Origin: Pomphorhynchus laevis
Lineage: Eukaryota; Acanthocephala; Palaeacanthocephala; Echinorhynchida; Pomphorhynchidae
DNA length: 64,000 nt
Assembly: GCA_012934845.2 (NCBI GenBank)
Contig: WNNJ02001181.1
Span: 1 to 64,000, forward strand
Direction: 5' to 3'
Shown here: positions 7,457-57,200 of the stretch, one piece after another
Numbering within the stretch: the first letter of the stretch is position 1
How the letters are laid out: each line of letters begins with the position of its first letter
Made by a program: the position numbers and the translations under genes
The notes under the pieces: generated by a model
Databases searched by the model: none
What the model saw: the letters and a program-made list of their open reading frames with translations, nothing else
What the model was told of the DNA's origin: nothing

Positions 7457-7987
7457 GTGATATCACCTACACACGTCAGTCGTCCTCCTTTACGGAAGCG
7501 CTTTGCTTCTCGCGATCGTTGCGTCATTGTAACTAATATCACGCCTTCTAACTCCTTATCTCCAAACGCACGTATGGACCACGATGTTTCCGCCTTCAGA
7601 TCCATCCTCTCGTCTATTGTTCCTGCGGATAAACCATCCTCTTTCAAGAAATTTTCTCCTGTCGCATTCATCCGTCTAAACAAATCTTCTCAATCTAATC
7701 CTTCCCAGCCCCCTCTCCTAAAAATTGATTTCAAGCATCGCTCTCACGCGTCTTCTGTCCTCTCTCAACGATTCAAACTCATGTCATCTTCAACCACTCG
7801 AATTTTCCCCGATCGCGCCCCTTCCGAAATCGCTCAAATCTCTTCAGCCCGCATCGAAAAACGCCGTCGCGAGGAAAACGGCGAAACATCACTCGCCATC
7901 CGAAACATAGACGGAAATTTTCAAGTTGTCCACACCCGTCCAAAAATTCGATGGCGCTCCATCTCTCCTATGTGTCTTCTCCACTAG
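7457..7987 (+). CDS. L2-type LINE ORF1 protein
   Basis: About 177 codons from the ATG at 7457. It carries a pattern seen at the C-terminus of ORF1 in several invertebrate CR1/L2 elements: SRDRCVIVTNI, a D/H-rich acidic patch, a basic strand PPLLKIDFKHRSHASS, then RIFPDRAPSEI and a terminal GETSLAIRNIDGNFQVVH stretch ending in PKIRW. The same C-terminal phrase occurs in the CR1 at 12598-13059 and in the L2 copies at 23280 and 33390. Presumed nucleic-acid-binding chaperone of the retrotransposon RNP. The frame overlaps ORF2 by about 37 nt. The true start could be upstream; no in-frame evidence decides it. Confidence 0.75.
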   Translation: MISPTHVSRPPLRKRFASRDRCVIVTNITPSNSLSPNARMDHDVSAFRSILSSIVPADKPSSFKKFSPVAFIRLNKSSQSNPSQPPLLKIDFKHRSHASSVLSQRFKLMSSSTTRIFPDRAPSEIAQISSARIEKRRREENGETSLAIRNIDGNFQVVHTRPKIRWRSISPMCLLH

Positions 7988-10846
7988 TCTCTTTCGCCAC
8001 AGCACACGGTTTCCGCCTCGGTCTCCTCAACACTAGATCTATTCTCAATAAATCCGATCTTATCCTCAACCTATTCACCAAGCAATCCATCGATCTCTTC
8101 TGCCTCACCGAATCCTGGCACTCAGATTCCGACGACCTTTCCATTCGCCGTCTGCTCTCTGCCGGTTGCTCCCTAGTCAAATCCGCCCGCCCCCTCAGCT
8201 CATGCCCTTCTAAATCCTCTAATCATGGCGGCATCGTCGCATTCGCGCGTCACCCAGCGTCTCTTCGCAAAATCAATCCCCCTTTCAGTCCTTGCTCTTT
8301 TGAATTGCTCACTTGTCGTTATTCTAACCCGATCACTCTAGATCTCGCCATTGTATACCGTCCTGGTTCATCAGCTCCTACAGCCTTATTTTTTACCGAA
8401 TTCGCTGACCTCCTTTCTCATTGTTCTTTGTCCTCAATTCCTTCACTCGTTCTAGGCGACTTCAATATCCTCCTAGACCGCCCCTCTTCCACAGATTCCA
8501 TCCGCTTCATCAACATTCTATCCAACTACAATTACAAACTAATCTCCACTGCCCCCACACATATACTTGGCGGGGCACTCGACATCATCGCTGTCCCCGA
8601 TCATTTTGCTGCCCACACCTCACTGTCCATCTCTGATCCTGGTCTATCCGATCACTTTCTTATCACCCTTGATCTCGCTCGCAACCACACCCCTCCTCAC
8701 ACACCTACAATCCTACGTCGCCCTTGGAGAAATCTTGACCTCTCCCTTCTCCGCTCTGCCTTACTCAAATCGTCTCTATCATTACCCACAATAACATATT
8801 CATCTCCTCACGATCTCGCCTTTCTTTTCGACTCTGAACTCACATCCACTCTCGATATTCTCTTGCCCTTCAAGTCTCACCCACACCGTCGCTTGCACCG
8901 TGCCCCATGGTTTGACATCCAATGCCTACTCTCAAAACGTCGACTCCGCCATGCTTTTCGAGTCTATCACCGCTCTCTCAGACGCGATTTCCGCTCGATC
9001 ACTCCGTCTTTCCGTGATTCCTATCTTGCTCTTCGCCGGTCTCATCTCCACCTACTACGTACCAAATGCAACTCCTTCTGGCAGCATAAAATCATCACTT
9101 CATTCAACTCTAAGACACTCTGGCATACTTTTAACTCAATCCTGGCTCGCTCCTCTACGCCTTGCAACATCAATGCTAATGATTATTCGTCATTTCTCCA
9201 GACTAAAGTATCCACGCTGCTCTCTCACACCCCGGTCTCCATCCCATCCCACTCTGCCCAGTCTACTCTCATCCTTCCTAGAACTCTTTCATCTTCTCCC
9301 TGTATCACCTACAGAAGTATCATCTGTCCTCATGTTCTTGCCCAACAAAACCTCATCTGCCGATCCCCTGCCTACCCACATATTAAAATCTATATGCTCA
9401 TCGATATCCCCATTTCTCACAACCTTGTTTAACTCGTCCATCCGCAGTCGTATCTTCCCTTCACACTGGAAATCCGCAATCGTTCGTCCCCTCCTTAAGA
9501 AACAATCGCTCGACCCCTCCCTTCCTTCTAGCTATCGCCCTGTTTCACTACTCCCTACTCTTTCAAAGCTCTTAGAACGCCTCATCTTAATACAAATCAA
9601 CGCTTATCTCTCCTCATCCAATCTGTACCCTCCTTTCCAATCCGCTTTCCGCTCTAATCACTCGACAGAAATCGCATGCATAAAAGTGTACAACGACTTA
9701 CTCATTTCTCGAGACAAGGCTCTATATAGTGTTCTCATCTCCCTCGACCTCTCCTCCGCATTCGACATTGTCGACCACTCCGTCCTCCTTTCTCGCCTTC
9801 GTTATGATTACGGCTTTTCTTCCTCCTCCGTAGCTTGGTTCGCCTCATATCTATCCGACCGTTCCTTTCGCGTCTGTTCTAATTCATCATCCTCCCCTCC
9901 CATCCCTATTTTTTGCGGGGTTCCACAAGGTTCAGTCCTAGGTCCCCTGCTTTTCTCTCTTTTGCTTGGTGATCTCTCTCCATTTATCAAACCTTACTCC
10001 TTTAACGTCATGCAATACGCCGATGACATTCTAATCTATGCTCATGCACCCGCACATCGCATACACGATATCGGCATTTCTGCCTCCAACTGTCTTTCTT
10101 CTATCTACAAACGTCTCTCCAATCTCCATCTCGTTCTAAACGCCGAAAAGTCCAAAATAATGTGGATCCTTCCCCGTAAACCAAGCATATCTCCTCCCAT
10201 TGTATCTTTTGCCTCATCGATCATCCCTATAGTCCACAATCTCACTTTCTTAGGCTTCCATTTCGATGATCACCTTTCCCTTAAACCCTTCGTCCGTGAC
10301 AAGGTCCGCTCGTCTAACTTAATTCTCCGTGACATCCGCCGTATCCGCCCCCTTATCGACTTCCGTTCTTGTATGTCTCTTCTTTCATCGCTTCTTTTCC
10401 CTAAAATCGATTACTGCCTTAGCCTTTTCGCCAATTCTCCAAAATCCATCATCCTACCCCTACAACGAATAATCAACACCGCCGTTCGAGTGCTCTTTCG
10501 TCTCCGTCGCTTCGACCACACATCCACATATTTTGCCCAACTCTCCTGGCCCACCATCCACATCCGCATCAAACTCCGCCTTCTAGTAACTTTTCGTCTC
10601 ATCGCTGTCGGCTCCCCGTCGTTCATCAACCTTCCTTTCTTAAACGATACTCGCCCCACCTCGCTATCGCTTCGTTCCTGTCATACCCTCTTACTCCACG
10701 TTCCTAATTACTCCAACAACTACGGTCTCCGATCCTTCCTCGTCGCCGCCTCACTCGCCTGGAATCAACTCCCTCTCGACGTCCGCCGCGCTCCCTCCTT
10801 TATCACATTCAAACACCTCCTCCGTTCACACCTTCTCGACACCTGA
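7951..10846 (+). pseudogene. L2-type LINE ORF2: endonuclease and reverse transcriptase
   Basis: Starts at ATG 7951 inside the end of ORF1. The N-terminal third is an AP-like endonuclease: RLGLLNTRSILNKSD, LFCLTESWHSD, LVLGDFNILLD, STAPTHILGGALDII and SDPGLSDHFLITLDL (catalytic-type N, E, D/N and SDH residues visible). The reverse transcriptase follows: SYRPVSLLPTLSKLLER, ISLDLSSAFDIVDHSVLL, FCGVPQGSVLGPLLFSLLL and the catalytic YADD in MQYADDILIYAHA. The C-terminus ends in the typical LAWNQLPLDVR phrase. One frameshift near 9275-9300 joins the endonuclease frame (open to 9432) with the RT frame (open to 10846). Combined length is about 965 residues, normal for the group. No other disabling change noticed. 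Confidence 0.85.
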
Positions 10847-21492: not shown

Positions 21493-22110
21493 CAATTATT
21501 CCTGTCAGTTCCAGATTATTCCTGTCAGTTCCAGATTATTCCTGTCAGTTCCAGATTATTCCTATCAGTTCCAGATTATTCCATCAGTTCCAGATTATTC
21601 CTGTCAGTTCCAGATTATTTATGTCAATTCCAGATTATTCCTGTCAGTTCCAGATTATTCCTATCAGTTCCAGATTATTCCATCAGTTCCAGATTATTCC
21701 TGTCAGTTCCAGATTATTTATGTCAATTCCAGATTATTCCTGTCAGTTCCAGATTATTCCTATCAGTTCCAGATTATTTCTGTCAGTTCCAGATTATTCC
21801 TGTCAGTTCCAGATTATTCCTGTCAGTTCCAGCTTATTCCTGTCAGTTCCATATTATTCCAATCAGTTTCAGATTATTCCTGTCAGTTCCACATTATTTC
21901 TGTCAGTTACAGATTATTCCTGTCAGTTCCAGATTATTCATGTCAGTTCCAGATTATTCCTGTCAGTTCAAGATTATTCCTGTCAGTTCCAGATTATTCC
22001 TGTCAGTTCCAGATTATTCCTGTCAGTTCCAGATTATTCCTGTCAGTTCCAGATTATTCCTGTCAGTTCCAGATTATTCCTGTCAGTTCCAGATTATTCC
22101 TGTCAGTTCC
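21493..22110 (+). repeat. 20-bp minisatellite, about 31 copies
   Basis: Tandem array of the 20-bp unit TTCCTGTCAGTTCCAGATTA. Variant units (TATCAG, a 19-bp unit with CCATCAG, TTATGTCAATT) cluster in a block of roughly 120 bp repeated twice in the first half, a higher-order pattern. The second half is nearly homogeneous. The array ends at CGCTCGCTACGCTCGC, itself palindromic. It sits directly upstream of an L2 copy and may belong to that element's 5' region. Confidence 0.95.
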
Positions 22111-22156: not shown

Positions 22157-24785
22157 TGACAAAAAAAGCGAGATCTCAGATCCCTGTTCCTGATCAAGTA
22201 TCTTCCACATCAGAATGCAATGATGGTTAAACCAGTTTTGAAGTTGGATGTGATTCCAAAGATTGTGATGTATAGACACTTGTTCGTGTTAAAATATCCG
22301 ACCACTCGGTGTATAAACATAAACAGTTCACATCCGGTTTTTGTACATCAGTACGACTACTACAGTTATCCTGCTCCTCTACTCCTGTATCACACACGAC
22401 CACTCAGACCAATGCTGTTTTAGATGTTTCCCTCGCATCAACACCTGACTTCGCATCTTATAATCCCATTATTGAACCTACTCTCTCACACACTCCTCGT
22501 TCAATTACGAACCAAACTTCCATTGATCTTGATCATTCTCACAATGCTAACGGTAAAGCTTTTAATCTCGTACCTCCTCTTTTCTATTCCTCCCCCAATC
22601 AAATAAATCTCAAACTTCTTTATTCTCTTCACGTACTCCTTACTCTACCTCTCCCGTATCACTTCTTAATAATTTACATCCTTCCTTCAAAATCATTTCC
22701 AGTAACATTTCCGATCAACTGATTCAACACTCCATTCCTGTCACTCATGCCCCAACCTATCTTAATTCTCCTTACTCTACCTCCCACGTAGCACTTCCAA
22801 ATAATTTACATCCTTCATCTAAAATCATCTCCAGTCACATCTCTGCTCAACCGATTCAACACCCCGCTCCTGTCACACTTGCTCCGAACAATATTAATTC
22901 TCTAGCAAGCACCCCTGTCATTTTCACTTCTATCTGCTCATCTGCTTCGATTCCTACAAGCTCTCTCCGTCCACCACTTCCACGAAATCGTTTTCCTTCG
23001 CGCGATCGCTGTATATTCATATCAAACTTAAAGCTTTCCGAATCTGCTTCTCCACAATCTCGCTTCGATGATGATGTATCTGCTTTCAGATCTATCCTAG
23101 CAACCATTCTTCCTGATGATAACCCATCCCTCTTCAATAATATCGCTCCTGTATCCTTTATTCGTTTTAAACAAATCCACTAAATTCAATCATCTCAGTC
23201 ATCCACTCTTAAAAATCGTTTTCTGACATAGTTCATCGGTACTCTCCCAACGTTTAAAACTTCTTACCACTTCATCTACTTGCGTATCTTTCCTGACCGC
23301 TCCCCTTCTGATATTGCTCAGCTCAATTTAGCTCGCATTGAGAAACATCGACGTGAAACAAACGGCGAGTCATCCTTATCTATACGTCAAATCAACGGAA
23401 ATTTTCACGTTCTTCACACAAGGCCAAAAATTCGATGGCGTCCCATCTCTCCCCCTTGTCTTCTTCGCTAGTCGATCTCGCTCCTAAGCATACTTTTCTT
23501 CTTAGTCTATTCAACACTCGCTACATTCTTCATAAAGCTGACATGCTCCTCGATATCTTCAAACAATTATCTATCGATATTCTTTGCATTACCGAATCAT
23601 GGTACTCTGACTCCGACGATCTTGCTATTCGTCGTCGATGTCGCTCTGGTTGTTCTCTAGTTAAATCAGCTCGTCAAATTGCATCTCATACATCTACTGC
23701 TTCTAACCATGTCAGTATTGTTGTCATTGCTCGTCACCCAATGTCTTTACGTAAAATTAACGTTAACATTCGTTACACCTCATTCGAATAACTCATATGC
23801 AGATTATCAACTCCTTTCCCTCTAGAACTTGTGATTGTATACCGTCCAGGTTTAGTTGCCCCATCACGTATCTTCTTTAACGACCTTGCAGATCTAATGT
23901 CTCACTGTTCATTGTCTTATACTCCTTCTTTTGTTCTCGGTGACTTTAACATTCGTCTTGATCGCCCGGCTGACTCTGACTCTATCACTTTAACTAATCT
24001 TTTTTCTGATTTTAACTATAAATTACTTTCAACAAGCCCAACTCATATTCTCGGCGGTGCTCTCGACATCATTGCTGTTCCTAACTGCTTCAATGACTAT
24101 ACCTCCTTGTCAATTACTGATCCTGGTTTGTCCGATCATTTCCTTGTCACTCTTACTCTTACTCGTCCCCATCCTCCTTCTCCGCCTTTACCATTATCTA
24201 CACCAAGTCGACCCTGGAAGCTTCTCGATATCCCTATCCTCTGCACAGCCTTACTCAATTCTTCACTCTTTTCACTTCCTCTTAACTATCTCTCTCCCGA
24301 TGATCTCTGCATTCTGTTTGATTCTGAACTTACGTCGATCCTCAATAACCTTCTACCTAGTCGACTTCGACGTTACCAGCGCTCGCGCAATGTTCCCTGG
24401 TTCGATTCTGACTGTAGTCTTTCTAAGCGTCGACTCCGTCACTCTTTTCGTATGTATAAACGCTTTCTTAAACGTTCTCCCAACTCACTTCCTCCAAACC
24501 TCCGTGATTCTTACTTTTCTCTACGCCGTTCACATCTCATTCTTATACGTACTAAACGTACTCTCTTTTGGCGAAATCAAGTCGAGTCATCTTCCAACTC
24601 TAAATCTCATTGGAAAATCTTAAACTCAATTCTTTCACGATCATCTACCCCTTGTAATATAAATCCTGATGAATTTTCTTCTTATCTACAAACTAAGCTA
24701 TCTAATTTACTTTCCCTACTACCCATAGCCCCCTTGTACCCACTCTTCTCTTTAAATACTTCCCTCCCAGAACTATTCCACCTTT
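22157..24785 (+). pseudogene. Truncated L2-type LINE (ORF1 and endonuclease)
   Basis: Related to the L2 at 7269-10923. ORF1 remnants run from about 22157 with frameshifts; its C-terminus at 23280-23471 reads RIFPDRSPSDIAQLN and ESSLSIRQINGNFHVLH. ORF2 starts at 23435 and carries the endonuclease: LLSLFNTRYILHKADM, LCITESWYSDSDD, then after a break at 23789 SFVLGDFNIRLDRP, STSPTHILGGALDII and DPGLSDHFLVTLTL. It stops at 24787 just where the 360-bp satellite begins, so the RT is missing. The break is a junction, either a truncation by the satellite or a recombination point. Confidence 0.85.
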
Positions 24786-25005
24786 AAGCTTATTAGCTCC
24801 CGGAGCACAGTTTAACACGTCCAGATATAAAATTATAAAAATGTATCCTCCAAAGGATCCTGTGAGAAAGCAAGCAACGACAGTAAGTGAAATTCCTGCC
24901 GAATAAAATTAGGATGGTCCGGAAAGCACATGGTTAGTTTAAAGAGGCTATGCCCATGCTACCACGTTAGCAAATTCTCGGAAATGCCTATTTAATATAT
25001 CACAA

Positions 25006-25080
25006 GGCAGCCGAAACGACTGATGGTAGTTCACCCTACTGATGAGTGCTGCCGGCTACCATCAGCTCGTCTAGGAGTGA
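25006..25080 (+). ncRNA. Hammerhead core blocks, satellite A unit 1
   Basis: Same layout as the unit-2 entry, 360 bp upstream. The only nearby difference is GGAAATC instead of GGAAGTC after the block, outside the core. Confidence 0.7.
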
Positions 25081-25365
25081 TAAGGAAATCTGCTCTACTT
25101 GTAATCGAACTCCGGTTTTTGGCAACATCTACAATTATGAAACTGAAGCTTATTAGCTCCCGGAGCACAGTTTAACATATCCAGATATGAAATTATAAAA
25201 ATGTATCCTCCAAAGGATCCTGTGAGAAAGCAAGCAACGACAGCAAGTGAAATTCCTGCCGAATAAAATTAGGATGGTCCGGAAAGCACATGGTTAGTTT
25301 AAAGAGGCTATGCCCATGCTACCACGTTAGCAAATTCTCGGAAATGCCTATTTAATATATCACAA

Positions 25366-25440
25366 GGCAGCCGAAACGACTGATGGTAGTTCACCCTACT
25401 GATGAGTGCTGCCGGCTACCATCAGCTCGTCTAGGAGTGA
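25366..25440 (+). ncRNA. Hammerhead core blocks in permuted order, satellite A unit 2
   Basis: Block A: GGCAGCC (25366-25372), GAAA (25373-25376), CGA. Block B: CACCCTA, CTGATGA (25399-25405), GTGCTGCC. Block C: TCG, then GTC (25429-25431), then TAGGAGTG. Stem II pairs GGCAGCC with G(T)GCTGCC (one bulged U). Stem III pairs ACGA with TCGT and extends by a perfect 10-bp helix, CTGATGGTAG (25380-25389) with CTACCATCAG (25416-25425). Stem I pairs CCTA with TAGG and CAC with GTG across a bulge. All conserved core bases are present. The strand order A-B-C is not any of the three normal permutations; a normal type I fold needs B from the preceding unit with A and C of this one. Confidence 0.75.
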
Positions 25441-25725
25441 TAAGGAAGTCTGCTCTACTTGTAATCGAACTCCGGTTTTTGGCAACATCTACAATTATAA
25501 AACTGAAGCTTATTAGCTCCCGGAGCACAGTTTAACACATCCAGATATGAAATTATAAAAATGTATCCTCCGAAGGATCCTGTGAGAAAGCAAGCAACGA
25601 CAGCAAGTGAAATTCCTGCCGAATAAAATTAGGATGGTCCGGAAAGCACATGGTTAGTTTAAAGAGGCTATGCCCATGCTACCACGTTAGCAAATTCTCG
25701 GAAATGCCTATTTAATATATCACAA

Positions 25726-25800
25726 GGCAGCCGAAACGACTGATGGTAGTTCACCCTACTGATGAGTGCTGCCGGCTACCATCAGCTCGTCTAGGAGTGA
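25726..25800 (+). ncRNA. Hammerhead core blocks, satellite A unit 3
   Basis: Identical in the core to unit 2; 360 bp downstream of it. Confidence 0.7.
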
Positions 25801-25908
25801 TAAGGAAGTCTGCTCTACTTGTAATCGAACTCCGGTTTTTGGCAACATCTACAATTATGAAACTGAAGCTTATTAGCTCCCGGAGCACAGTTTAACACAT
25901 CCAGATAT

Positions 25909-25913
<5 letters not shown>

Positions 25914-25977
<64 letters not shown>
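25914..25977. repeat. (TA)n microsatellite
   Basis: About 31 TA dinucleotides separating satellite A from satellite B; both arrays run directly into it. Confidence 0.97.
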
Positions 25978-25981
<4 letters not shown>

Positions 25982-26271
25982 GACATGGTGATTGAAATTC
26001 GTGAATCTAAGTCCAGTATATCAAGCAACACCATTTAGTATAAATGCCGTATTTCGTAAAAAATCCTGGACCGTTGTCTACTCAGCACATCCGTGCACTA
26101 CTATTATACCTGCCGTATCCATTTAGGATCCAACGAGTGCAGCGACAATTCAGCAACAACCTCTGCCTAGTGTTTAAGGATGGTCCGCACAGCAATTCGA
26201 TCTGGTTAAGAGCGTAAGCCTCAGACAATTAAGCAAAGTGTCGGAAACGCCTTTATTCACAATGTCACACA

Positions 26272-26360
26272 GGCAACCGAAACGACCAGTGTGTACCTCA
26301 TTCTACTGATGAGTGTTGCCGGGTACTCATCATTTCGATGCTGAAGTGGTCGTCTAGAAG
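26272..26360 (+). ncRNA. Hammerhead core blocks in permuted order, satellite B unit 1
   Basis: Block A: GGCAACC (26272-26278), GAAA, CGACCA. Block B: CATTCTA, CTGATGA (26306-26312), GTGTTGCC. Block C: TGGTCGTC (26347-26354) then TAGAAGTG. Stem II GGCAAC/GTTGCC, stem III ACGACCA/TGGTCGT (7 bp), stem I TTCTA/TAGAA, cleavage triplet GTC. Compared with satellite A, stems I and II have changed on both sides and still pair. The order A-B-C is again non-canonical within the unit. Confidence 0.75.
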
Positions 26361-26650
26361 TGACATGGTGATTGAAAGTCGTGAATCTAAGTCCAGTCTA
26401 TCAAGCAACACCATTTAGTATAAATGCCGTATTTCGTAAAAAATCCTGGACCGTTGTCTACTCAGCACATCCGTGCACTACTATTATACTTGCCGTATCC
26501 ATTTAGCATCCAACGAGTGCAGCGACGATTCAGCAACAACTCTGCCTAGTGTTTAAGGATGGTCCGCACAGCAATTCGATCTGGTTAAGAGCGTAAGCCT
26601 CAGACAATTAAGCAAAGTGTCGGAAACGCCTTTATTCACAATGTCAAACA

Positions 26651-26740
26651 GGCAACCGAAACGACCAGTGTGTACCTCATTCTACTGATGAGTGTTGCCG
26701 GGTACTCATCATTTCGATGCTGAAGTGGTCGTCTAGAAGT
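26651..26740 (+). ncRNA. Hammerhead core blocks, satellite B unit 2
   Basis: Same core as unit 1 of satellite B; all stem and catalytic bases kept. Confidence 0.7.
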
Positions 26741-27028
26741 GACATGGGGATTGAAAGTCGTGAATCTAAGTCCAGTCTATCAAGCAACACCATTTAGTAT
26801 AAATGCCGTATTTCGTAAGAAATCCTGGACCATGTCTACTCAGCACATCCGTGCACTACTATTATACCTGCCGTATCCATTTAGGATCCAACGAGTGCAG
26901 CGACAATTCAGCAACAACCTCTGCCTAGTGTTAAGGATGGTCCGCACAGCAATTCGATCTGGTTAAGAGCGTAAGCCTCAGACAATTAAGCAAAGTGTCG
27001 GAAACGCCTTTATTCACAATGTCACACA

Positions 27029-27117
27029 GGCAACCGAAACGACCAGTGTGTACCTCATTCTACTGATGAGTGTTGCCGGTACTCATCATTTCGATGCTGA
27101 AGTGGTCGTCTAGAAGT
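27029..27117 (+). ncRNA. Hammerhead core blocks, satellite B unit 3
   Basis: Same core as unit 1; one G is missing just after GTTGCC (linker), outside the stems. Confidence 0.68.
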
Positions 27118-27173
27118 GACATGGTGACTGAAAGTCGTGAATCGAAGTCCAGTCTATCAAGCAACACCATTTA

Positions 27174-27228
<55 letters not shown>
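27174..27228. repeat. (TA)n microsatellite
   Basis: About 27 TA dinucleotides at the end of satellite B, followed directly by the dispersed repeat. Confidence 0.97.
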
Positions 27229-27231
<3 letters not shown>

Positions 27232-27890
27232 TCGTATGAGATCATGAAGATCGATTGGAATCGGGACTGGTGATCCTTTGATGGATTCTTATTTATGTAA
27301 CGAATAGTTGCTAGGTCACACGAGGTGACTTTCGCATTGAAAACCAGCTACAGAATCCTTCCTTCATGATATCCAATTCCATACACCCTGACTACTAACG
27401 GCGCCATTGCCACAACCGTTTTCGTTTCGCCCGCTTTTTGCCACATGTTGGTAGCCCCGGGCTCATCAGAAGGCTGACTACCAACTCTTCGCCTTTTGAA
27501 ATTTGACTTATCCGAGATTCGAGCTGTCGCTCTCCGTACTTGGCTTGCGCTCTTGACTGCTAGGCTACGAATCCAGGATTACCAGATTTCACACAGTATA
27601 TGAAACCTTCCATCATGATATCCAGAAACTGCATTGTCCGAGATGCTTCTCTGGCATGCTTATTATAGATTTTATCGTATGAGATCATGAAGATCGATTG
27701 GAATCGGGACTGGTGATCCTTTGATGGATTCTTATTTATGTAACGAATAGTTGCTAGGTCACACGAGGTGACTTTCGCATTGAAAACCAGCTACAGAATC
27801 CTTCCTTCATGATATCCAATTCCATACACCCTGACTACTAACGGCGCCATTGCCACAACCGTTTTCTTTTCGCCCGCTTTTGGCCACTAA
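27229..27890 (-). repeat. Hammerhead-bearing dispersed repeat, two copies
   Basis: 27229-27558 and about 27670-27889 are direct copies of each other and reverse complements of 17341-17606. Between them is a short unrelated or diverged piece (27559-27667). The first copy carries the full core on the minus strand. The second is cut at the stem II side (CGCCCGCTTTTGGCCAC) where the palindromic element begins, so its CTGATGA block is lost. Confidence 0.85.
27375..27485 (-). ncRNA. Hammerhead ribozyme candidate, type I order
   Basis: Minus strand: CTGATGA (27469-27463), stem II GCCCG/CGGGC, GAAA at 27428-27425, AACGG/CCGTT in stem III, GTC at 27392-27390 followed by AGGG pairing with CCTT before the CTGATGA. 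Same design as 17410-17520, with the canonical T where that copy has C in CTGACGA (a position that tolerates any base). Confidence 0.6.
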
Positions 27891-27941: not shown

Positions 27942-28027
<86 letters not shown>

Positions 28028-28112
28028 GAAAATTAAACCGGGAAATCCAAAAGATTTATTTGATTGAATTTACAATTATTTAGTTCACGCTTTCGGCTGC
28101 TGCCTTCATCAG
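27886..28112. repeat. Palindromic element ends around (TA)n
   Basis: Inverted arms of about 60 bp (27886-27944 and 28024-28084) flank a (TA)n tract at 27945-28024. The shared arm contains AAATTCAATCAAATAAATCT and GGATTTCCCGGTTTAAT. Outside the right arm, on the minus strand, 28112-28091 reads CTGATGAAGGCAGCAGCC followed by GAAA: a hammerhead-type core with a 3-bp GGC/GCC stem II, as often found near the ends of Penelope-like elements. The arms look like two copies of one element end joined tail to tail, each tail being TA repeats. Confidence 0.8.
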
Positions 28113-28818: not shown

Positions 28819-31164
28819 TTGACCTTAATTAAGTGCTCCTTAAGATCTTCCCTCCTTCAAAATTACTCTTGTTCAGCCCTGTCTTGTTTGGTAGTTTCAC
28901 TCGTTAAGAACGGTAACCACCTCAGTCTAGCCGATGTATACATCCGTCCAGAGAAGATTCACAAAAATCGTGCCCTCCTGGATGGTATTATTGATAGCGG
29001 CGACGACATGGTACTAGGTGACTTCAACGACAGAACTGGTCGATAGATTAATGCAGCACTCCGCAGAGCCAGGAACAGTTATCTTATTCACAAACCACCA
29101 TCCCCCACCTTTCATTGAACATCAACGAATTCACTACTCAACTTATTACTGATCCACGAGAGGCGGTTGATAAAACCCTTCTGTACGGAGCAGTCGCGAC
29201 AACATCTGTCCATTACTCATGATCTAATTCGCTAGCGGTTAGAAGAGGATACGCTGCTTCGTAGAAGATTCCACTTTGACCCGATCAGAGTGGCTTTCTT
29301 CCAGGCAGCAATCCAACGCTTCCCCGAATTGGTAATGAGAGTTTAACCGAATTTAATTCCTTCCTCTTTTTGCAAGCTACCGCTTTGCTTTCGACAACCT
29401 TTAAAGGTCACATTTTCAATTCCACTCCGACAAAACTCAAGGTTCTAGCTAAACTGCTAAACCTCCCTAATCTCTCTTTCTCCTTAGGCAGACCCTCTCA
29501 AATGAATACTGGCGCACCAGATATTGGTTCCAGCTGAGTAGGGATATGGCGAGCATTTCTCGTCTTAACTCTTCTCAGTCTTCCTTTTGGAAGATATTTA
29601 AGAAGGAGAAGTTTGTTCGTTGAAGGGATAGGGCTTTGGGTTGGATCGGTAGTATAGGCCTTGATAAAGTTTTGGAGGAGTTACTAGCCCTTCATAATTA
29701 TGGAGCCACGCAATCTCCGCAACCAATCCCGCATTGGGAAGACTTCAGGAGTAGAGACTTATCTGTCACAGATATTCTCAACATTTGGGGGGCTCTTCCG
29801 GGCACCTCCAAAACCGTCGCTCCACTCTCTTCCCGTGTCTGCCAGCTTTTGACAGCCGATCGAAGAAGGGGGTGGCCGTCACAATGCTATTAGCCACCCC
29901 ATCCGATGTGGCCGGCATTAACATTAGCAAGAGAATTTTTATTCCAAAAAAGTTTCCGGTCTCTTGTCAAAAAAGACCTACGGCCCATTTTGATTCAAAA
30001 TTCCCTCGTCTCGATCTACGAAAAAGCACTTGTGCGTAGAATCCGCGATCATCTGATTAGGCGAAATTTAATCACACCAAGTTTTAATGGGTTCGTCAGA
30101 GGTCGCTCGGTCCATTCAGCTGTACGTGAAGTGCATCAGCTCTGTTAGGATAATATTAATTAATTTGCTCTGGCTGTTGTCCTTGATTTTTCTGCTGCAT
30201 TTGACCGTATCTCCATCCCCTTTGTTATCTTTTCTCTAAGGTCCCTCGGGTTGTCTGCGAGAATTGTTAACAGGGTGGAGATACTGCTGTACACCAAGCA
30301 TTCTATTATGAAGACGAACCCTGATGCGCGTCAGTTCTACCCTATTACGGGTGTACCCCAAGGATCCCCTCTTTCTCCTATCTTGTGTCTTGCTGCTTCC
30401 ATTATACTTAAAATATTTAAACGTGAACAACGTCTAGTGGTATACGTTGATGATACCACATCCTTGTTCTCTGGACGCAGGTGCAAAGACGTAGTCTCAT
30501 ACATCAGCCGTTTCTTTTTAATATTAAAAGATCAGTTACCCAAGTCCAATCTTATTTTAAACTCTGCCAAATCGCAGGTGGTTGTCTTTCATCGTGCCCC
30601 TGCAAAAAAGCAAAAACTTAAGAGATTAGTACTCTCTGCGCTCTCCTCCGTTCTGACTAATCAACCACTCTCTGTCTTCACGAGTCTAGTAAAATACCTG
30701 GGGTTCACCGTTACGGTGAACTGGTCGGCGAAAGTTGACCTGGATAGACTTAAACATATCCTGAAGAGAGCTAGATGGGCTCTGAAACGGGCCCAGCATC
30801 TGTCATTGAAAGGGAAAATTCAGGTGCGCCTCTGGGGCACTTGGGCTATCTCGGGATCAGTCTTCCTTTTTAGAGGACGTCCCCCAGAGCAAAGGCTAAG
30901 GTTTCTCAAGCTCTTCGTCTCTCTATTACCCAGCATAGCCCGCCTCGATTGGACTCTTCGCGGTGTGAAATACCCCGGGTGGTTCAGTCGAAGAGCGGCG
31001 TGTTGGCTCGGCTGGAGGGCTCAGATCCCACTGGACCTGATGCCCTGAGTTATGTAAGAAGATTAAGCAGTGTCATTATATCCATACGTCTTCTTGTTTT
31101 TGTAGCTTTCGGTTTTTCTGTTTCTGACGATGAACCCTTTGTAATATTTATTTATTTAAGATAA
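28819..31164 (+). pseudogene. Decayed non-LTR retrotransposon, unassigned clade
   Basis: Endonuclease remnant at 28890-29043 (SLADVYIRPEKIHKNRALL, DDMVLGDFNDRTGR). RT from about 29940: RPILIQNSLVSIYEKALVRR, then NGFVRGRSVHSAVREVH, a stop-interrupted piece with VLDFSAAFDRISIPFV at 30175-30230, then TGVPQGSPLSPILCLAAS and the catalytic YVDD in RLVVYVDDTTSLFSGRR at 30430-30475. The stretch 30251-31048 is open for 265 codons and includes the thumb region. The GVPQGSPLSP form differs from the GVPQGSVLGP of the CR1/L2 copies here, so this is another lineage. Not active: several frameshifts and stops. Confidence 0.75.
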
Positions 31165-31399: not shown

Positions 31400-32150
31400 T
31401 GGTCTATTACATCCCCAGATCCTGTTCATCTCTTTATCGAGTATCTATGTTGGTCAATACGCTTAGACAATCCTTGTTCTTATTGACCAATATAGATCTT
31501 ATTACAGCCGTCACAAGGAATTTTATATACAACACCATCCTTGTTCAAATTAGGTTTATGTTCAAATATATTTTTTATTTTGGGCATTTTTTGATTATAT
31601 ATGACAATGCTGGGGGTGCCATTTTTAGAACGTTTAATGTGATTGATCGTTTTGCCGTTCCATTTATCATTAATATAGCGTATACCTATATATTTTGTTT
31701 CAAGTTTTTGACCTATCAATTTTGCCCTAGTACTATTTTCCATAAAATATGATTTTTTGATAGCCCAAGTATGATATATACTACTTATAAGACTTCTCTT
31801 AGTTACATCATCCCTTTTCGATTTGAGATAGACACTAGAACAGATTGCCTTTGATCTCAAGAACTGTGAGGAAACTGTAGAAATTTTCCAATCGCTAGGT
31901 ACATTACTTTCCCAGCTTACAACATTAGGGTACTCACAAATTTTTTGGGAAACCTCAGTTTCTACTTTGTTTGCAGGAGATCTAATAATCTTTATATCAA
32001 GTAAGGATAATGCACCATCTTCTTCCTTCGTTAATGTCCACTGAATATTTATATCAGCACTATTTAATCCAAAAAACAATCTGGGTCAAACGGTTCCTTT
32101 AAAAGAACAAAAGCATCATCCGCATACCTAAGCCAGGTATGATCAAGATA
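31400..32150 (-). pseudogene. Penelope-like element: RT end and GIY-YIG start
   Basis: Minus strand. The catalytic RT box WLRYADDAFVLLKE lies at about 32130-32090 (YADD at 32126-32115). After a short frame break, 32079-31480 reads the end of the RT and the linker (NIQWTLTKEEDGALSLLDIK) to VYKIPCDGCNKIYIGQ, the start of a GIY-YIG nuclease domain, with a stop immediately after. The frame beyond the stop reads EQGLSKRID, the next nuclease motif. Penelope-like elements use a GIY-YIG endonuclease for insertion. The N-terminal RT is missing here. Confidence 0.8.
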
Positions 32151-38244: not shown

Positions 38245-39535
38245 AACCGAATAGCGATCTAATGATATAAGTCGCTGCTATATTTCAGAAAATGAATTTA
38301 CAAAGTGAATTACACGAAATGAACGTAAATAAATGTGAAAATTTAATCCATTTTATCAAAATAAAATGATAATATATGGATATAATAACGTATACGGAAA
38401 AATGATTGGAGCTTGAAGCAAAAATATATTGGAATGCCTTAATCTTTGAGTAATAGAAATTATGCATAAAGAATTATTGGAGCTGGATCAAAGAAAAGAG
38501 GAGAATGTTTTATTAAAATTTCGCTAACTTCTGTTAGCATCTTCAGAAAATTACAATGTTTCTCAAAACATACATGCCTTTATAAAAAAATTATTCAAAA
38601 TGATCAGGACGATCGTTTGGATCGCCAAAACGATCTTTTACTAACACTGATTGATCATAACAAATATTACCCTATTTGACTAATAGATAAAACTCAAAAA
38701 CAATAAAATACACCAATACTGAAATGTAGCGTGCTGTTGTTGGCTTATAGATAGGATTAAGGCAACGTGCAATGTTATCAAAAAGTTCAATAGTAACAAT
38801 GACTGCACAATTATATCAACTTGAAATCAGAACACAAATTGTAGATGACTAGTTTGATAATAGAAATTAATTGCAAAAATATGCAGGTTTTTAAATTGAA
38901 GGTTGCACCTTCCCAACCATTACTGATTAATAGGTACTTGATCAATAGCTAATGAGGACAACCAATACTGAAATGTAGCGTACTGTCGTTGGCTTATAGA
39001 TAGGATTAAGGCAACGTGCAATGTTATCAAAAAGTTCAATAGTAACAATGACTGCACAATTATATCAACTTGAAATCAGAACACAAATTGTAGATGACTA
39101 GTTTGATAATAGAAATTAATTGCAAAAATATGCAGGTTTTTAAATTGAAGGTTGCACCTTCCCTACTAGGCTGATTAATTTCAATTAAATTGATTTCAAT
39201 TTAATTGATTTAAATAAAATTTTCAAAATTTTAGGCAAAAGTCTTTCATTAAATCTAAATGCTAATAAAGCAAACGAGTCGAATCAAAGTAGAATCATCA
39301 ATTAAACTAAATTGTTAGATTATTACTAATCGTAATGTTAATCTGTACAAAATGTTTGGCTTGTCAGTTGGTTATTTGTGAACAAAATTATATTTGATCA
39401 CCTATTGCAAATTTGAGTAATTCATTTTGATAAAATGGATTAAATTTTCACATTTATTTACGTTCATTTCGTGTAATTCACTTTGTAAATTCATTTTCTG
39501 AAATATAGCAGCGACTTATATCATTAGATCGCTAT
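38245..39535. repeat. 1.3-kb unit bounded by inverted repeats
   Basis: 38245-38370 and 39428-39535 are near-perfect inverted copies of at least 105 bp (shared CGAATAGCGATCTAATGATA and TGAATTACACGAAATGAACG). Between them are the 249-bp tandem repeat (38712-39168) and, on the minus strand at about 38545-38515, a CTGAAGATGCTAAC / GTTAGC / GAAAT motif like a hammerhead stem-II region. May be a composite or foldback element. Confidence 0.75.
38712..39168 (+). repeat. 249-bp direct duplication
   Basis: Copy 1 is 38712-38960. Copy 2 starts at 38961 and stays nearly identical for about 205 bp. Each begins ACCAATACTGAAATGTAGCG, the phrase that also closes the hammerhead-like blocks at 39905, 40171 and 40880. 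Confidence 0.9.
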
Positions 39536-39784: not shown

Positions 39785-40930
39785 CACTTAAATGCTCACT
39801 TTTAACGTCAGCCAACATTAAAAGGGCCGAAACGTTAAACGTAAAAAAGGACCGAAACGTTAAACGTTAAACGTAGGTATTGGATCAGCAGCTGATGAAG
39901 TCCACCAATAATGAAATGTAGCAAACCGCCACATTAATATTTATAATCTTATACTATTTATAAGCTATTGGCTTATAAATAGGATTAAAGAAACAAGCCG
40001 AATAAAAATAGAAATCAGAAATGATTTCAATTAAATTTGCAAAATGTAAGACGAATATCTTTCATTAAATCTAAATGCCAATAAAAGCAGACTAATCGAG
40101 TGATCGTCAGTTTAAAAGGACCGAAGCGTGAAACGTAGGTATTGGATCAGTAGCTAATGAGGACAACCAATACTGAAATGTAGCGTACTACTGTTGGCTT
40201 ATATATATGATTAAAGTAGCGTGCAGTGTTATCAAAGTTGCAATTGTAACAATGACTAGATTGTAGATTAACAAATTAACCTCAAAAAGATTATATTAAT
40301 TTAAAATTAGAAACAAGTATTTTTAAATTTAGGTAACCGAGGCTACAAAATATGTGGCCTCGCTTAAGTGATCTGATCAGTTAACCGTTTATTTTCACCT
40401 GCAAAATGAGATTGTGTAGAAGTGTGACAACTCGTAGCTATAATTAAATTTAACTTTCAGCATTTTATTCATTACATGTTCCTTTTAAATATGGAATAAC
40501 GTTTTACGATTAAAATATTTGTAAATATATAAAATTTATATTTTTAAATTTATAAAATATGTCGTATGAGTTAAGTGAGTGGTGATGTGATTAATAAGAA
40601 TTAAGGAAATTGTTTTATCTTATATTTAAAATTTCAGTTTATAAAAAGGAATATAAATCGAAACATGATTTCATATATATAGAGGGGAATATAAATCGAA
40701 ACCTGATTGATATATTGATGACCTATAATAAATGAATAATTATTACATAAATAATGTAAGACGAAAGTATTTCATTTAATCTAATTGTCAATACACTAGG
40801 CAAGTCGAGTGATCGTCAACAAACATTAAAAGGACCGAAACGTGAAATGTAAATATTGGATCAGTAGCTGATGAGGTCCACCATACTGAAATATAGCGTA
40901 CTGCAGTACATTTTGCGAATTATAAATTAA
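39785..40930 (+). repeat. Short repeat family with hammerhead-like blocks, three copies
   Basis: Copies around 39835-39930, 40105-40200 and 40825-40910. Each holds GGACC-GAAA-CG, a 5-nt loop and CGTA or TGTA, then GTATTGGATCAGTAG, CTGATGA (CTAATGA in the middle copy), GGTCC/GTCC/GGAC, and ACTGAAATGTAGCGTA. Stem I CAGTAG/CTACTG is perfect in the middle copy; stem II GGACC/GGTCC is perfect in the last. Two GAAA-plus-short-stem-III modules surround one CTGATGA, so either could supply the 3' half. Non-coding. Confidence 0.65.
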
Positions 40931-54200: not shown

Positions 54201-57200
54201 TTAGAGTTTTATCCGATGATATCTACAGCTATAATTGTATAATTTTAGAAAAATGAAAATACATATAATTTTATAGATTATAGCGTTGATTACATTTAAT
54301 CATATCACCCAGTGGCGGGTTATTAAAACTTTGAAGGTAAGTCTGATGTTGAATTTTATTTGATTATTTTTCCTTTAAAGCTTTTTCATAATAGTGATTT
54401 CGCATCAAATATTTTAATTAAATATAAAATTATTTTTATATTATTCTAATTGTCTAGGACGTTGAAACATCGAGATGAATAATAAAATAAGAAATTTGTA
54501 AATAATTTATTTTTCTATTCCTTTCGATGTTTAAATACCGTGTACAATATAATAGTACATCGAACTTATCATTGTATATTATTCTAATTGTTTAAAATTA
54601 AAATTTTATAAAACAAATATATATAGCGATTTCAAAATTCTATTAACAGGAAAACATCCTGTTAATTCTGTATAAATAGAGCATACCAAAAATCATTGCA
54701 AATGTATTTGGTAATGTCCGTGTCATGTAAAACGAGAAATGAAATTGAGTAGCCGTTATGATTGAAAACGCAGATGCAACTGTATTTCCGAACACCTCAC
54801 GAACCACAAATATGTATTGATATAACCCAAGGAATACAAGTAGTCCTAGGGTAGCACGAGCTAAAATAAAGCATATATAAAATATACAATATTACCATTA
54901 TATAAAATAATTAATTAGCAAAATAATATAAAACAAATCGTTTTCAAAGAAAAACAAAAGTCATATTAGTGCAAAGCATTAGTGTTAAAAATACTTTATT
55001 TCGTTAAATTTAATTCTATTGAAACTAAATTGATTAAAATTGAAATTTTATTAAATTTAAATTTTAATCAATTAAAGAATTAAAAATGAAGAATATATTC
55101 TCCAAATTTATTATTTATATTTATTTGATGAATCCCATATAATCAACACTTGCAAGCACATCAGTGGAAGTGCCGGACCGTCAGGAATGGATTCAGTTTT
55201 ATGGAAACAGATGCTTACTGGTTTTGGTATCACATCAAATTCTCTTGCTTCCGCACTTGCCGAGTTCGGAAGATGCTTAGCTTGCGAGATTATACCATTT
55301 GCTTCACTTGACGCCTTTACTTGCTGCAGATTAGTGATCATCAAAAGGAAAGATGGTGGTGTTCGACCGATTGGCGTTTGTGAAGTTGCTCGTCGAATTG
55401 TATGTAAGGCGTTGCTTAAGATTATTCGCTTAGATTTACAGAAAGCAGCCGGTCTAGTTCAATTAGCCGCTTCGCAACGGGCAGGAATTGAATATGCGAT
55501 ACATTCTGTCCGGCAGTCTTACAAAGCCAACAGTGATCATTGTGTGTTAGCGGTTGATGCTTCAAACGCGTTTAACTCGACAAATCGAGCCGTAACCTTA
55601 CACAACATACAATATACTTGCCCATCTTTCTCAACTTTGCTACGAAATATGTACGCGGGGCCTGCTCAGCTTGTTCTAGGGAGTGATAGCATCATGTCGA
55701 CCGAAGGCTTCACACAACGTGACCCCTTATCTATGGCGGGGTTCGCTATGTCATCTCTTCCACTTATACACAAAATCAGAAGTAGAGTCCCAAATGTTGT
55801 TCAGAGATGGTTCGCGGACGATTCAAACTTTGTTGGTCATCCAAAAGATTTACAAGAGGTTTGGAACTTGCTAATACAGATTGGTCCACTGTTTGGTTAC
55901 TATGCCAATGAATCGAAAAGCCAATTGCTAGCACATGATGAAATGTCGAGCAAGTTATATCTCGGGAATGTAACTAAATCGACAAGTTGCATCAACATTT
56001 TAGGATTTCCTATAGGTTCGGACGATTTTATTCAAGACACTACATCCAGCCATGTTAAACGCTGGACTGGGCTAATCGATAAACTAGTTGATATTGCTGA
56101 GATTGATCCTCACGTTGCATACGTTGGTATGGTAAATGCGTTGCAGGTTAAATTGATTCATTTTATGAGATCGACTACTTGCCTACCATTGACTTTAATC
56201 GAGTTGGATGACTCAATACGATTTCATTTGTTACCTGCTTTTATCAAAAGAAACATTGACGATAATTTTTTACCATATTTACAACACCTATCAACCTCGG
56301 CGGCCTTGGTGTGAATCATCAATCTTTTTCATCAGTCCTTGAGTTTGACTCATTGTTGTCAATTTGCGCAACTTATGACCGGAACATTCTAAGAGATGAA
56401 CTCGTAGAGCTACAAAAAACAACTGTGAATAACATTTCCACGTGGCGAAAAATCAAATTCAAAAGTCGCTTAGACGCTGCTTTAAGTGGTTCAGATATTT
56501 CATGTTCGAACTCAATTGCTCATGCATCATTTACGGGTGTTTCTCTCTGGTTGAGTGGATTGCTTTTGGTACTCGACGGTTTTCATTTAAGCCCGCACGA
56601 ATTTAGAGAAGCGATTTATTCTCGTTATGGTTGGACACCGCCCGAGCTGATAAATTCAAAGTGTATCTGTGGCGAAACCATCAGTGCTCCACATTCATTA
56701 TCGTGTAAACGAGATGCTCTGCCTATTATAAGACACAACACTCTCCATGACATAACGGCGTCTTCTCTTGATAAGTATGCTCTGGTGTTGAAGTAGAGCC
56801 GGTTTTCAAGCCTGTACCCGAGTCACTAAAGTTCAATCAAGAATTTACAACTCGTGACCTAGATGCGCAAGTGGATGTGGTTTGCTCTGGCCTCTTCAAC
56901 GAAAAGATTTGAGCGGACGTTTTTCGACGTCTATGTCTATTCTACTCATGTTCAATCTTACATCAATAGAGATCACTCCTCAACATTCTCGTACAACGAA
57001 AACAGAAAAATGGTCAAGTAGAATGAAAGAGTATCAACTATGGATCATGGTGGTTTTATACCGCTTGTATTTTCGACGTCTGGCGGCATAGGTGATCGTG
57101 CCAATTCTGTGCTTAAGGCGATAGCCTCCAAGACAACTCGCACCAATCGGTCGTTATATGCAAATGTGATACTCACTTTAAAGCGAAAACTGAGTTTCGC

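Follow-up and report, generated by a model that had tools for sequence, protein, structure and literature searches.

Does nature use a hammerhead ribozyme whose strands are laid out in an order foreign to the classical types and, if so, how many repeat units does it need to fold? The question arises from two neighbouring satellite arrays, A and B, in a 64,000-nt window of Pomphorhynchus laevis DNA (the window being the whole stretch analysed), which is part of one contig of the 249-Mb eukaryotic assembly used for our genome-wide pattern searches. Three full satellite A units span positions 24786–25865, followed by a further 61 nt and then by (TA)32 (Table 1). A full unit carries, 5' to 3', block G (3' strand of stem II, GAAA and 5' strand of stem III), then block C (3' strand of stem I, CTGATGA and 5' strand of stem II) and, last, block S (3' strand of stem III, GTC and 5' strand of stem I). 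These blocks are present in each of the window's six full units (three per satellite), in the order and at the coordinates first described. The pattern CGAAACN{12,42}CTGATGAGN{12,42}GTCTA matched six times in the window and never in 100 dinucleotide shuffles.

Table 1 Repeat features and G-C-S motifs in the window
Feature	Position	Strand	Basis
Satellite A array: three 360-bp units and a 61-nt partial unit	24786..25926	+	TRF, BLAST
A unit 1, complete GCS motif	25006..25080	+	pattern match 25012-25073
A unit 2, block G: stem II 3' strand GGCAGCC, GAAA, stem III 5' strand	25366..25389	+	sequence, pattern match
A unit 2, block C: stem I 3' strand TCACCCTA, CTGATGA, stem II 5' strand	25391..25413	+	sequence, pattern match
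A unit 2, block S: stem III 3' strand, GTC, predicted cut after 25431, stem I 5' strand TAGGaGTGA	25416..25440	+	cleavage inferred by analogy
A unit 3, complete GCS motif	25726..25800	+	pattern match 25732-25793
(TA)32, 3' end of array A	25914..25977	+	TRF; partial unit ending at unit position 61 on 8/11 contigs
Satellite B array: 3.2 units of about 379 bp each	25978..27178	+	TRF, BLAST
B unit 1, block G: GGCAACC, GAAA, stem III 5' strand	26272..26296	+	sequence, pattern match
B unit 1, block C: TCATTCTA, CTGATGA, GTGTTGCC	26298..26320	+	sequence, pattern match
B unit 1, block S: stem III 3' strand with insert of ~15 nt, GTC, predicted cut after 26354, TAGAAgTGA	26323..26363	+	
B unit 2, complete GCS motif	26651..26742	+	pattern match 26657-26735
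B unit 3, complete GCS motif	27029..27119	+	pattern match 27035-27112
(TA)26, 3' end of array B	27175..27227	+	TRF
Decayed family E tandem pair, 249-bp period, CUGAUGA block reading CTAATGA	38712..39163	+	TRF, sequence; assigned to E by eye
Family E GCS motif, single copy: GGACC-GAAA...CAGTAG-CTGATGA-GGTCC...GTA^CTGCAG	40830..40910	+	script, sequence

The middle A unit illustrates how tightly the blocks are packed. GGCAGC (25366–25371) is followed by C11.1 (25372), GAAA (25373–25376) and the 5' strand of stem III (25376–25389). After one linker nucleotide come the 3' strand of stem I (25391–25398), CTGATGA (25399–25405) and the 5' strand of stem II (25406–25413); after two more, the 3' strand of stem III (25416–25430), C17 (25431) and the 5' strand of stem I (25432–25440). 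Stem I comprises 8 bp and one bulged nucleotide, TAGGaGTGA/TCACCCTA in A and TAGAAgTGA/TCATTCTA in B. Re-reading the units returned the cut positions predicted in the preliminary description, after 25431 in A and after 26354 in B. The linkers are short, as had been noted, but measure 1–2 nt in A and B rather than 2–4 nt, since stem I is read here as an 8-bp helix with a bulge and not as one of 4–5 bp. A canonical reading of the same blocks was rejected: in neither A nor B does a GAAA lie between CUGAUGA and the cut site.

Classical hammerhead types I–III share the cyclic order C-G-S, which the motifs described here do not have. Their order is non-canonical, as first stated, but it is not unknown, as had also been claimed: a linear G-C-S order with all core elements is type GCS, published from one bacterial sequence. 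Eckert, Friedrich, Weinberg and Weinberg (2023; PMC10085705) dissected the hammerhead into blocks C, G and S, with six linear permutations, of which GCS is the sixth. In that paper, natural type SGC comprises 583 sequences, with examples tested, and type CSG two sequences, also tested; almost all motifs in the study come from metatranscriptomes only, type CSG from metagenomes only. The sole type-GCS candidate there is GCS-1 of Caballeronia peredens, which lacks covariation and whose biological significance the authors deemed unclear. A single-motif GCS-1 transcript cleaved in vitro with a kobs of 0.014 per min, which they regarded as cis cleavage (PMC10085705).

GCS-1 has the same 5'–3' order as the repeats here, and the cut is predicted at the equivalent place by analogy. 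It differs in being one bacterial sequence without covariation, whereas here seven covarying eukaryotic families give thousands of pattern matches in tandem repeats. Types SGC and CSG, as described there, likewise have the non-circular cyclic order and would form two pseudoknots in a one-unit fold, but are other linear permutations than GCS. Set against that paper, our sequence comparison adds a predicted type GCS that is abundant and covarying, occurs in a eukaryote and resides in retrozyme-like tandem repeats. A search of open-licence PMC papers, preprints excluded, turned up no eukaryotic genome and no retrozyme for which a non-circularly permuted hammerhead had been described. The term occurs in two further papers, which by title and abstract deal with structure-comparison software. 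As far as the literature was searched, this is the first well-supported type GCS, and in a new setting.

The same G-C-S order occurs in seven sequence families (A–G) of the host genome. Genome-wide, CGAAACN{20,50}CTGANGAGN{12,42}GTCTA gave 3324 matches against 2 for the reversed pattern; nearly all of the first ~100 places listed were A or B types. Family C, found among the listed places of this search, has 2432 matches within two mismatches (control, 0). A pattern in which CTGATGAG is followed by A or C matched 1222 times (control, 4); among its listed places families D and E prevail, alongside two copies of family F, from which alone that family is known. Family G was found by script in fetched loci and has 2041 matches within three mismatches (control, 0). 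The four counts overlap slightly and have not been added up; the composition of each is known only for its first ~100 places. Unit lengths are 360 bp in A, 379 bp in B, 360–370 bp in C and 399 bp in D, with a GC content of 0.40–0.44; the family G unit is about 393 bp, as judged from match spacing.

The families are not independent of one another. A, B and F have stem II and the ends of stem I in common, and C/D/E share ~74–80% identity over the ribozyme region, as measured between C and D. Between the C/D/E and A/B/F/G groups, stems I, II and outer III differ, while inner stem III is more alike. Units of C and D align in the ribozyme region only (C1–D 78 columns, C2–D 65–71), and the alignment of A with B spans 101 columns, which take in blocks G and C and part of S. 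Among 20 fetched stretches, two (L123 and L132) lack the stems and two more (L126 and L127) are decayed. Candidate relatives in viral contigs were discarded, all four matches being, by eye, type I hammerheads of the canonical order that happen to have CGAAAC upstream; the C/D/E-type pattern had no match in viral contigs.

CUGANGA, GAAA, an NUH triplet and A15.1–U16.1 are kept in families A–G. G10.1–C11.1 is kept as well, save in family G, in which one U precedes the G that pairs with C11.1. The NUH triplet is mostly GUC or GUA, with AUC in one B2 group and GUU in some D copies. To assess the stems, we aligned 23 motifs of A/B2/F/G and 17 of C/D/E from the 81 distinct motifs returned by our motif script; long-insert B copies were left out, the first A2 row is one base late, and at least one of the 81 (L071, AT-rich) is by its appearance probably a chance match. 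Paired cells make up 95.1% of 526 in A/B2/F/G and 91.7% of 373 in C/D/E, percentages that are inflated because the script required stems I and II to be at least 80% paired (bulge allowed) and the 15.2–16.2 pair to be present; outer stem III and the kinds of pairs are free of this selection. Sliding one strand by 1–3 columns lowers pairing to 25–45% in A/B2/F/G, and sliding lowers it to 29–45% in C/D/E.

Changes on both sides of a pair affect 12 of 23 pairs in A/B2/F/G and 11 of 22 in C/D/E. All five measures exceed all 500 shuffles in the former group. In the latter, three of the five do so, both-side changes being reached by 44 of 500 shuffles and further pair types by 408 of 500. We also re-paired consensus strands across the seven families, with bulge positions and consensus strands chosen by hand. 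Stem I paired at 34/35 positions against a mean of 22.0 (fraction 0.0004 of 5040 permutations), stem II at 35/35 against 26.7 (0.0008) and inner stem III at 27/28 against 23.7 (0.029). The proposal of three pairable hammerhead stems is thus borne out, I, II and III covarying both in the family alignments and on re-pairing. That the repeats represent a hammerhead with permuted blocks is well supported by these comparisons, and the sequence evidence that the arrangement is used in nature is good. To the biological relevance of type GCS, left open in PMC10085705, this genome contributes seven families, thousands of matches and clear covariation.

Two other explanations of the repeats bear on this conclusion. 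One is that they are stem-rich elements of another function, such as protein binding or the start of transcription or reverse transcription, that look like hammerheads by chance. Rfam names no ribozyme in the window, nor in three loci of family C, as this explanation would have it: a scan of the whole window gave no family at its gathering score, positions 24600–27400 gave seven matches at E ≤ 10 with no ribozyme among them, and the family C loci gave no match at E ≤ 1. Such silence is expected, since an order that requires a pseudoknot cannot be written in a nested covariance model. Chance resemblance is very improbable given core nucleotides with three covarying stems in seven families and the excess of pattern matches over controls, both in the window (6 against 0) and genome-wide (3324 against 2).

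The other explanation takes the repeats for true hammerhead descendants that are inactive today, dead satellite copies spread by the machinery of other elements or by unequal crossing-over. Copies with broken stems or cores exist, and although the motif within A and B has changed only 0.4–0.8 times as fast as the remainder of the unit (45 and 50 distinct copies), its core is no more conserved than its stems (0.018 versus 0.013 and 0.011 versus 0.009). We nevertheless consider this unlikely. Double compensatory changes are found between and within families, including a C–G to U–A change at 15.2–16.2 in subfamily B2, and many A and B copies on different contigs are 97–99% alike by BLAST.

How the blocks would come together is less straightforward. 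In every family, block C is the loop of the stem III hairpin and is flanked by linkers of 1–3 nt, one leading from outer stem III to stem I and the other to stem II (A, 1 and 2 nt; C, 2 and 1 nt; D, 1 and 1 nt). The predicted fold of the isolated motif contains this hairpin in eight of nine forms, F forming stem II instead. In the usual hammerhead, stems II and III are coaxially stacked and the far end of stem III points away from stems I and II, as PMC10085705 describes, and therefore such linkers cannot bridge a fully helical stem III within one unit. By a rough estimate from hand-typed helix lengths, a fully helical one-unit stem III would require 53–70 Å, compared with 13–26 Å of linker. 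Linker lengths and path estimate together uphold the earlier view that such linkers leave no room for a one-unit fold in which stem III stays intact.

A two-unit requirement is plausible but unproven; we give about even chances that the active fold forms between two units, which we place slightly ahead of a one-unit fold. The block C loop of one unit would pair with the arms for stems I and II in the following unit, or loops would be swapped between two units. All helices would be kept, with the hairpin helix lying across the far ends of stems I and II, where it may stand in for the usual loop–loop contact. This fold would also explain why stems I and II are similar in length within each family. 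Multimers would be able to cut themselves and a lone circle would not. A stronger version holds that the ribozyme is topologically unable to work as a single unit: its catalytic strand would be trapped in a loop, a second copy would be needed, either within one multimer or on a partner molecule, multimers would be cut to unit length while circles are spared, and the hairpin helix would replace the stem I–stem II contact. We rate this a little short of an even bet. If true, the loop-trapped strand would be a built-in switch by which multimers are cut and finished circles spared.

Alternatively, a single unit may fold as a pseudoknot, as Eckert et al. suggest for type GCS. The inner 3–7 bp of stem III would be kept, and its outer helix would open or swing back at a hinge and hold stems I and II together. 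In each of the seven families, the main form has stem III broken midway, by a one-nucleotide bulge in A, a bulge in F, an insert in B and an internal loop in C/D/E/G, and any of these might serve as the hinge. In eight of nine forms, with the pseudoknot penalty uncounted, the combined energy of stems I and II (−11.5 to −18.8 kcal/mol) is more favourable than that of the outer helix that would open (−4.0 to −14.6 kcal/mol), and cleavage of GCS-1 from a single-motif transcript also speaks for such a fold. Yet stem III is continuous in subfamily B2, alone among the forms, and in A and B2 it extends over 14–15 bp with 0–1 nt at the joint. The internal loop of C/D/E is conserved in sequence, which would be odd for a mere hinge, and outer stem III covaries and so probably forms at some stage. 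Taking these points with the path estimate, we regard the one-unit pseudoknot as a serious possibility that we lean against. In circular whole-unit folds, A retains the stem III hairpin, and the outer stem III strands of C1, C2 and D pair elsewhere. The repeats offer natural material for asking how a double-pseudoknot topology cuts and whether topology shields circles.

Under either the two-unit or the one-unit fold, the expected role would be retrozyme-like, from tandem transcripts to units to circles. We consider it probable that the repeats are animal-type retrozymes, that is, short non-autonomous retroelements, carrying a non-circularly permuted hammerhead of type GCS. By analogy, tandem transcripts would cut themselves after the NUH triplet, unit-length RNAs would then be circularised, and a reverse transcriptase, with (TA)n as its priming site, would copy the circles round and round into new tandem arrays. 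Animal non-LTR retrozymes comprise tandem units of 150–450 bp with type I hammerheads and give rise to circular RNAs (Cervera and de la Peña 2020; PMC7229834). Families A, B, C, D and G match this description in having tandem units of ~150–450 bp, low GC and a hammerhead in each unit, and depart from it in that the hammerhead is of type GCS instead of type I. The likeness extends to arrays from dimers to large multimers and to a non-autonomous nature; the difference is that those elements carry canonical type I (CGS) hammerheads. Axolotl hammerheads perform better as dimers, according to the same paper, where dimerisation concerns a weak stem III; here it would instead exchange the CUGAUGA loop. 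Classical hammerhead models may, we suggest, overlook a whole group of retrozymes.

Canonical type I hammerheads are present in the same genome, in 296-bp tandem units recognised by RF00163 (72 matches at E ≤ 10, the best at 42.2 bits against a cut-off of 34). In control searches, 11 of 14 genomes had matches at E ≤ 10 and none had one over the cut-off. These repeats resemble the GCS repeats in their short tandem units, and one locus (L063) lies beside a TA repeat. They differ in their CGS order, in a stem III that by eye is short and palindromic, and in being recognised by Rfam. BLAST detected no similarity between the 296-bp units and the A, B, C or D units (E ≤ 0.01, plus strand). A rod-like, highly paired circle was considered and set aside for A and B: circular folds of GCS units are 53–58% paired, with z of −0.6 for A and +1.6 for B relative to 30 shuffles, and the signal for C1, C2 and D is weak (z −1.7 to −2.8).

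The ends of the arrays carry traces of how they may have been inserted. An end was counted as a distinct position with its 30-nt flank, so that identical TA flanks from different contigs were merged, and some of the ends counted are breaks inside arrays. By BLAST, the partial unit of family A stops at unit position 61 on 8 of 11 contigs, and 16 of 26 distinct 3' ends of family B fall at unit positions 70 or 133. TATATA occurs within 20 nt of 12/26 B and 5/14 A 3' ends, and of 8/26 B and 2/21 A 5' ends; the 5' ends scatter along the unit. In A and B, the families whose ends were analysed, a fixed 3' junction, variable 5' truncation and TA repeats occur together, as target-primed reverse transcription at (TA)n would leave them. 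The sequence pattern of clustered 3' ends, often by TA repeats, and scattered 5' ends would thus fit this mode of insertion. A Penelope-like element that carries a hammerhead and begins reverse transcription internally (Frangieh et al. 2024; PMC11167929) likewise has its 3' junction fixed at internal RNA places and links a hammerhead to a retroelement; it encodes its own reverse transcriptase, whereas the repeats here are probably non-autonomous.

The idea that insertion ends mark the ribozyme cut was rejected, the clustered 3' ends lying elsewhere and the 5' ends bearing no clear mark. A rotated B query returned 31 distinct 5' ends, of which 4 fall no more than 6 nt from the predicted cut, where an even spread would place about one. 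Their offsets are −3, −2, +3 and +6, so that two lie upstream of the cut; +3 is the array B of the window. As a sign of cut templates, these ends give a weak hint at most.

Two fragments in the window appear PLE-like by eye; Pfam assigns no retroelement family to one and RVT_1, at 28.3 bits, to the other. For a gene of the host, the best named relative is that of Nymphon striatum (42% identity), and the host's COX1 fragments contain stops. Separately, several arrays in the genome start with an inverted piece (C213, C2920, C1352, C3239 and C2902).

The stem III internal loop of families C, D and E, whose hammerhead blocks follow the order G-C-S, comprises columns 15-23 and 59-67 of alignment A1, built from the motifs of these families. 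GAAAnGUAG is kept on its 5′ strand, and the 3′ strand likewise has a conserved, similar GUAG. Because GAAAYGUAG occupies both strands in some family E copies, the sequences suggest that this loop is a structured motif.

The 360-bp satellite A unit shares GTAATCGAAC with the 296-bp units of L061 and L073, two loci carrying canonical type I hammerheads. Relative to the ribozyme, however, it lies on opposite strands in the satellite and the 296-bp units. We guess that it is possibly part of an internal promoter. Family G matches recur at ~393-bp spacing across many kilobases of contigs C132, C301, C311 and C670 of the host assembly (G000), forming arrays longer than those of satellites A and B in the window.

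By eye, the window also holds a candidate hammerhead-like core in canonical (C-G-S) order, CTGATGAAGGCAGCAGCCGAAAGC (28089-28112, minus strand), which we take to be similar to the minimal hammerheads of Penelope-like elements. Nearby lies (TA)40 (27945-28024), flanked by an inverted repeat. CTGAAGA, a GCTAAC/GTTAGC stem and GAAA, again spotted by eye in canonical order (38518-38547, minus strand), are possibly another minimal hammerhead.

A reverse transcriptase fragment (59047-59835, minus strand; RVT_1, 28.3 bits) fell slightly under the Pfam cut-off, and an ORF (31480-32079, minus strand) ends in what looks by eye like a GIY-YIG-like start. Both appear to resemble Penelope-like elements, an identity for which the Pfam search gave no confirmation.

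Other reverse transcriptase ORFs in the window
Feature	Position	Strand	Match
Reverse transcriptase ORF	8900-10846	+	RVT_1
Reverse transcriptase ORF	30251-31048	+	RVT_1
Reverse transcriptase ORF	55187-56314	+	RVT_1

The ORF at 23831-24787, similar by eye to that at 7951-9432, ends at 24787, where array A starts. A tandem repeat at 21495-22110 (20-bp period, 30.9 copies) has one reading frame free of stops along its whole length.
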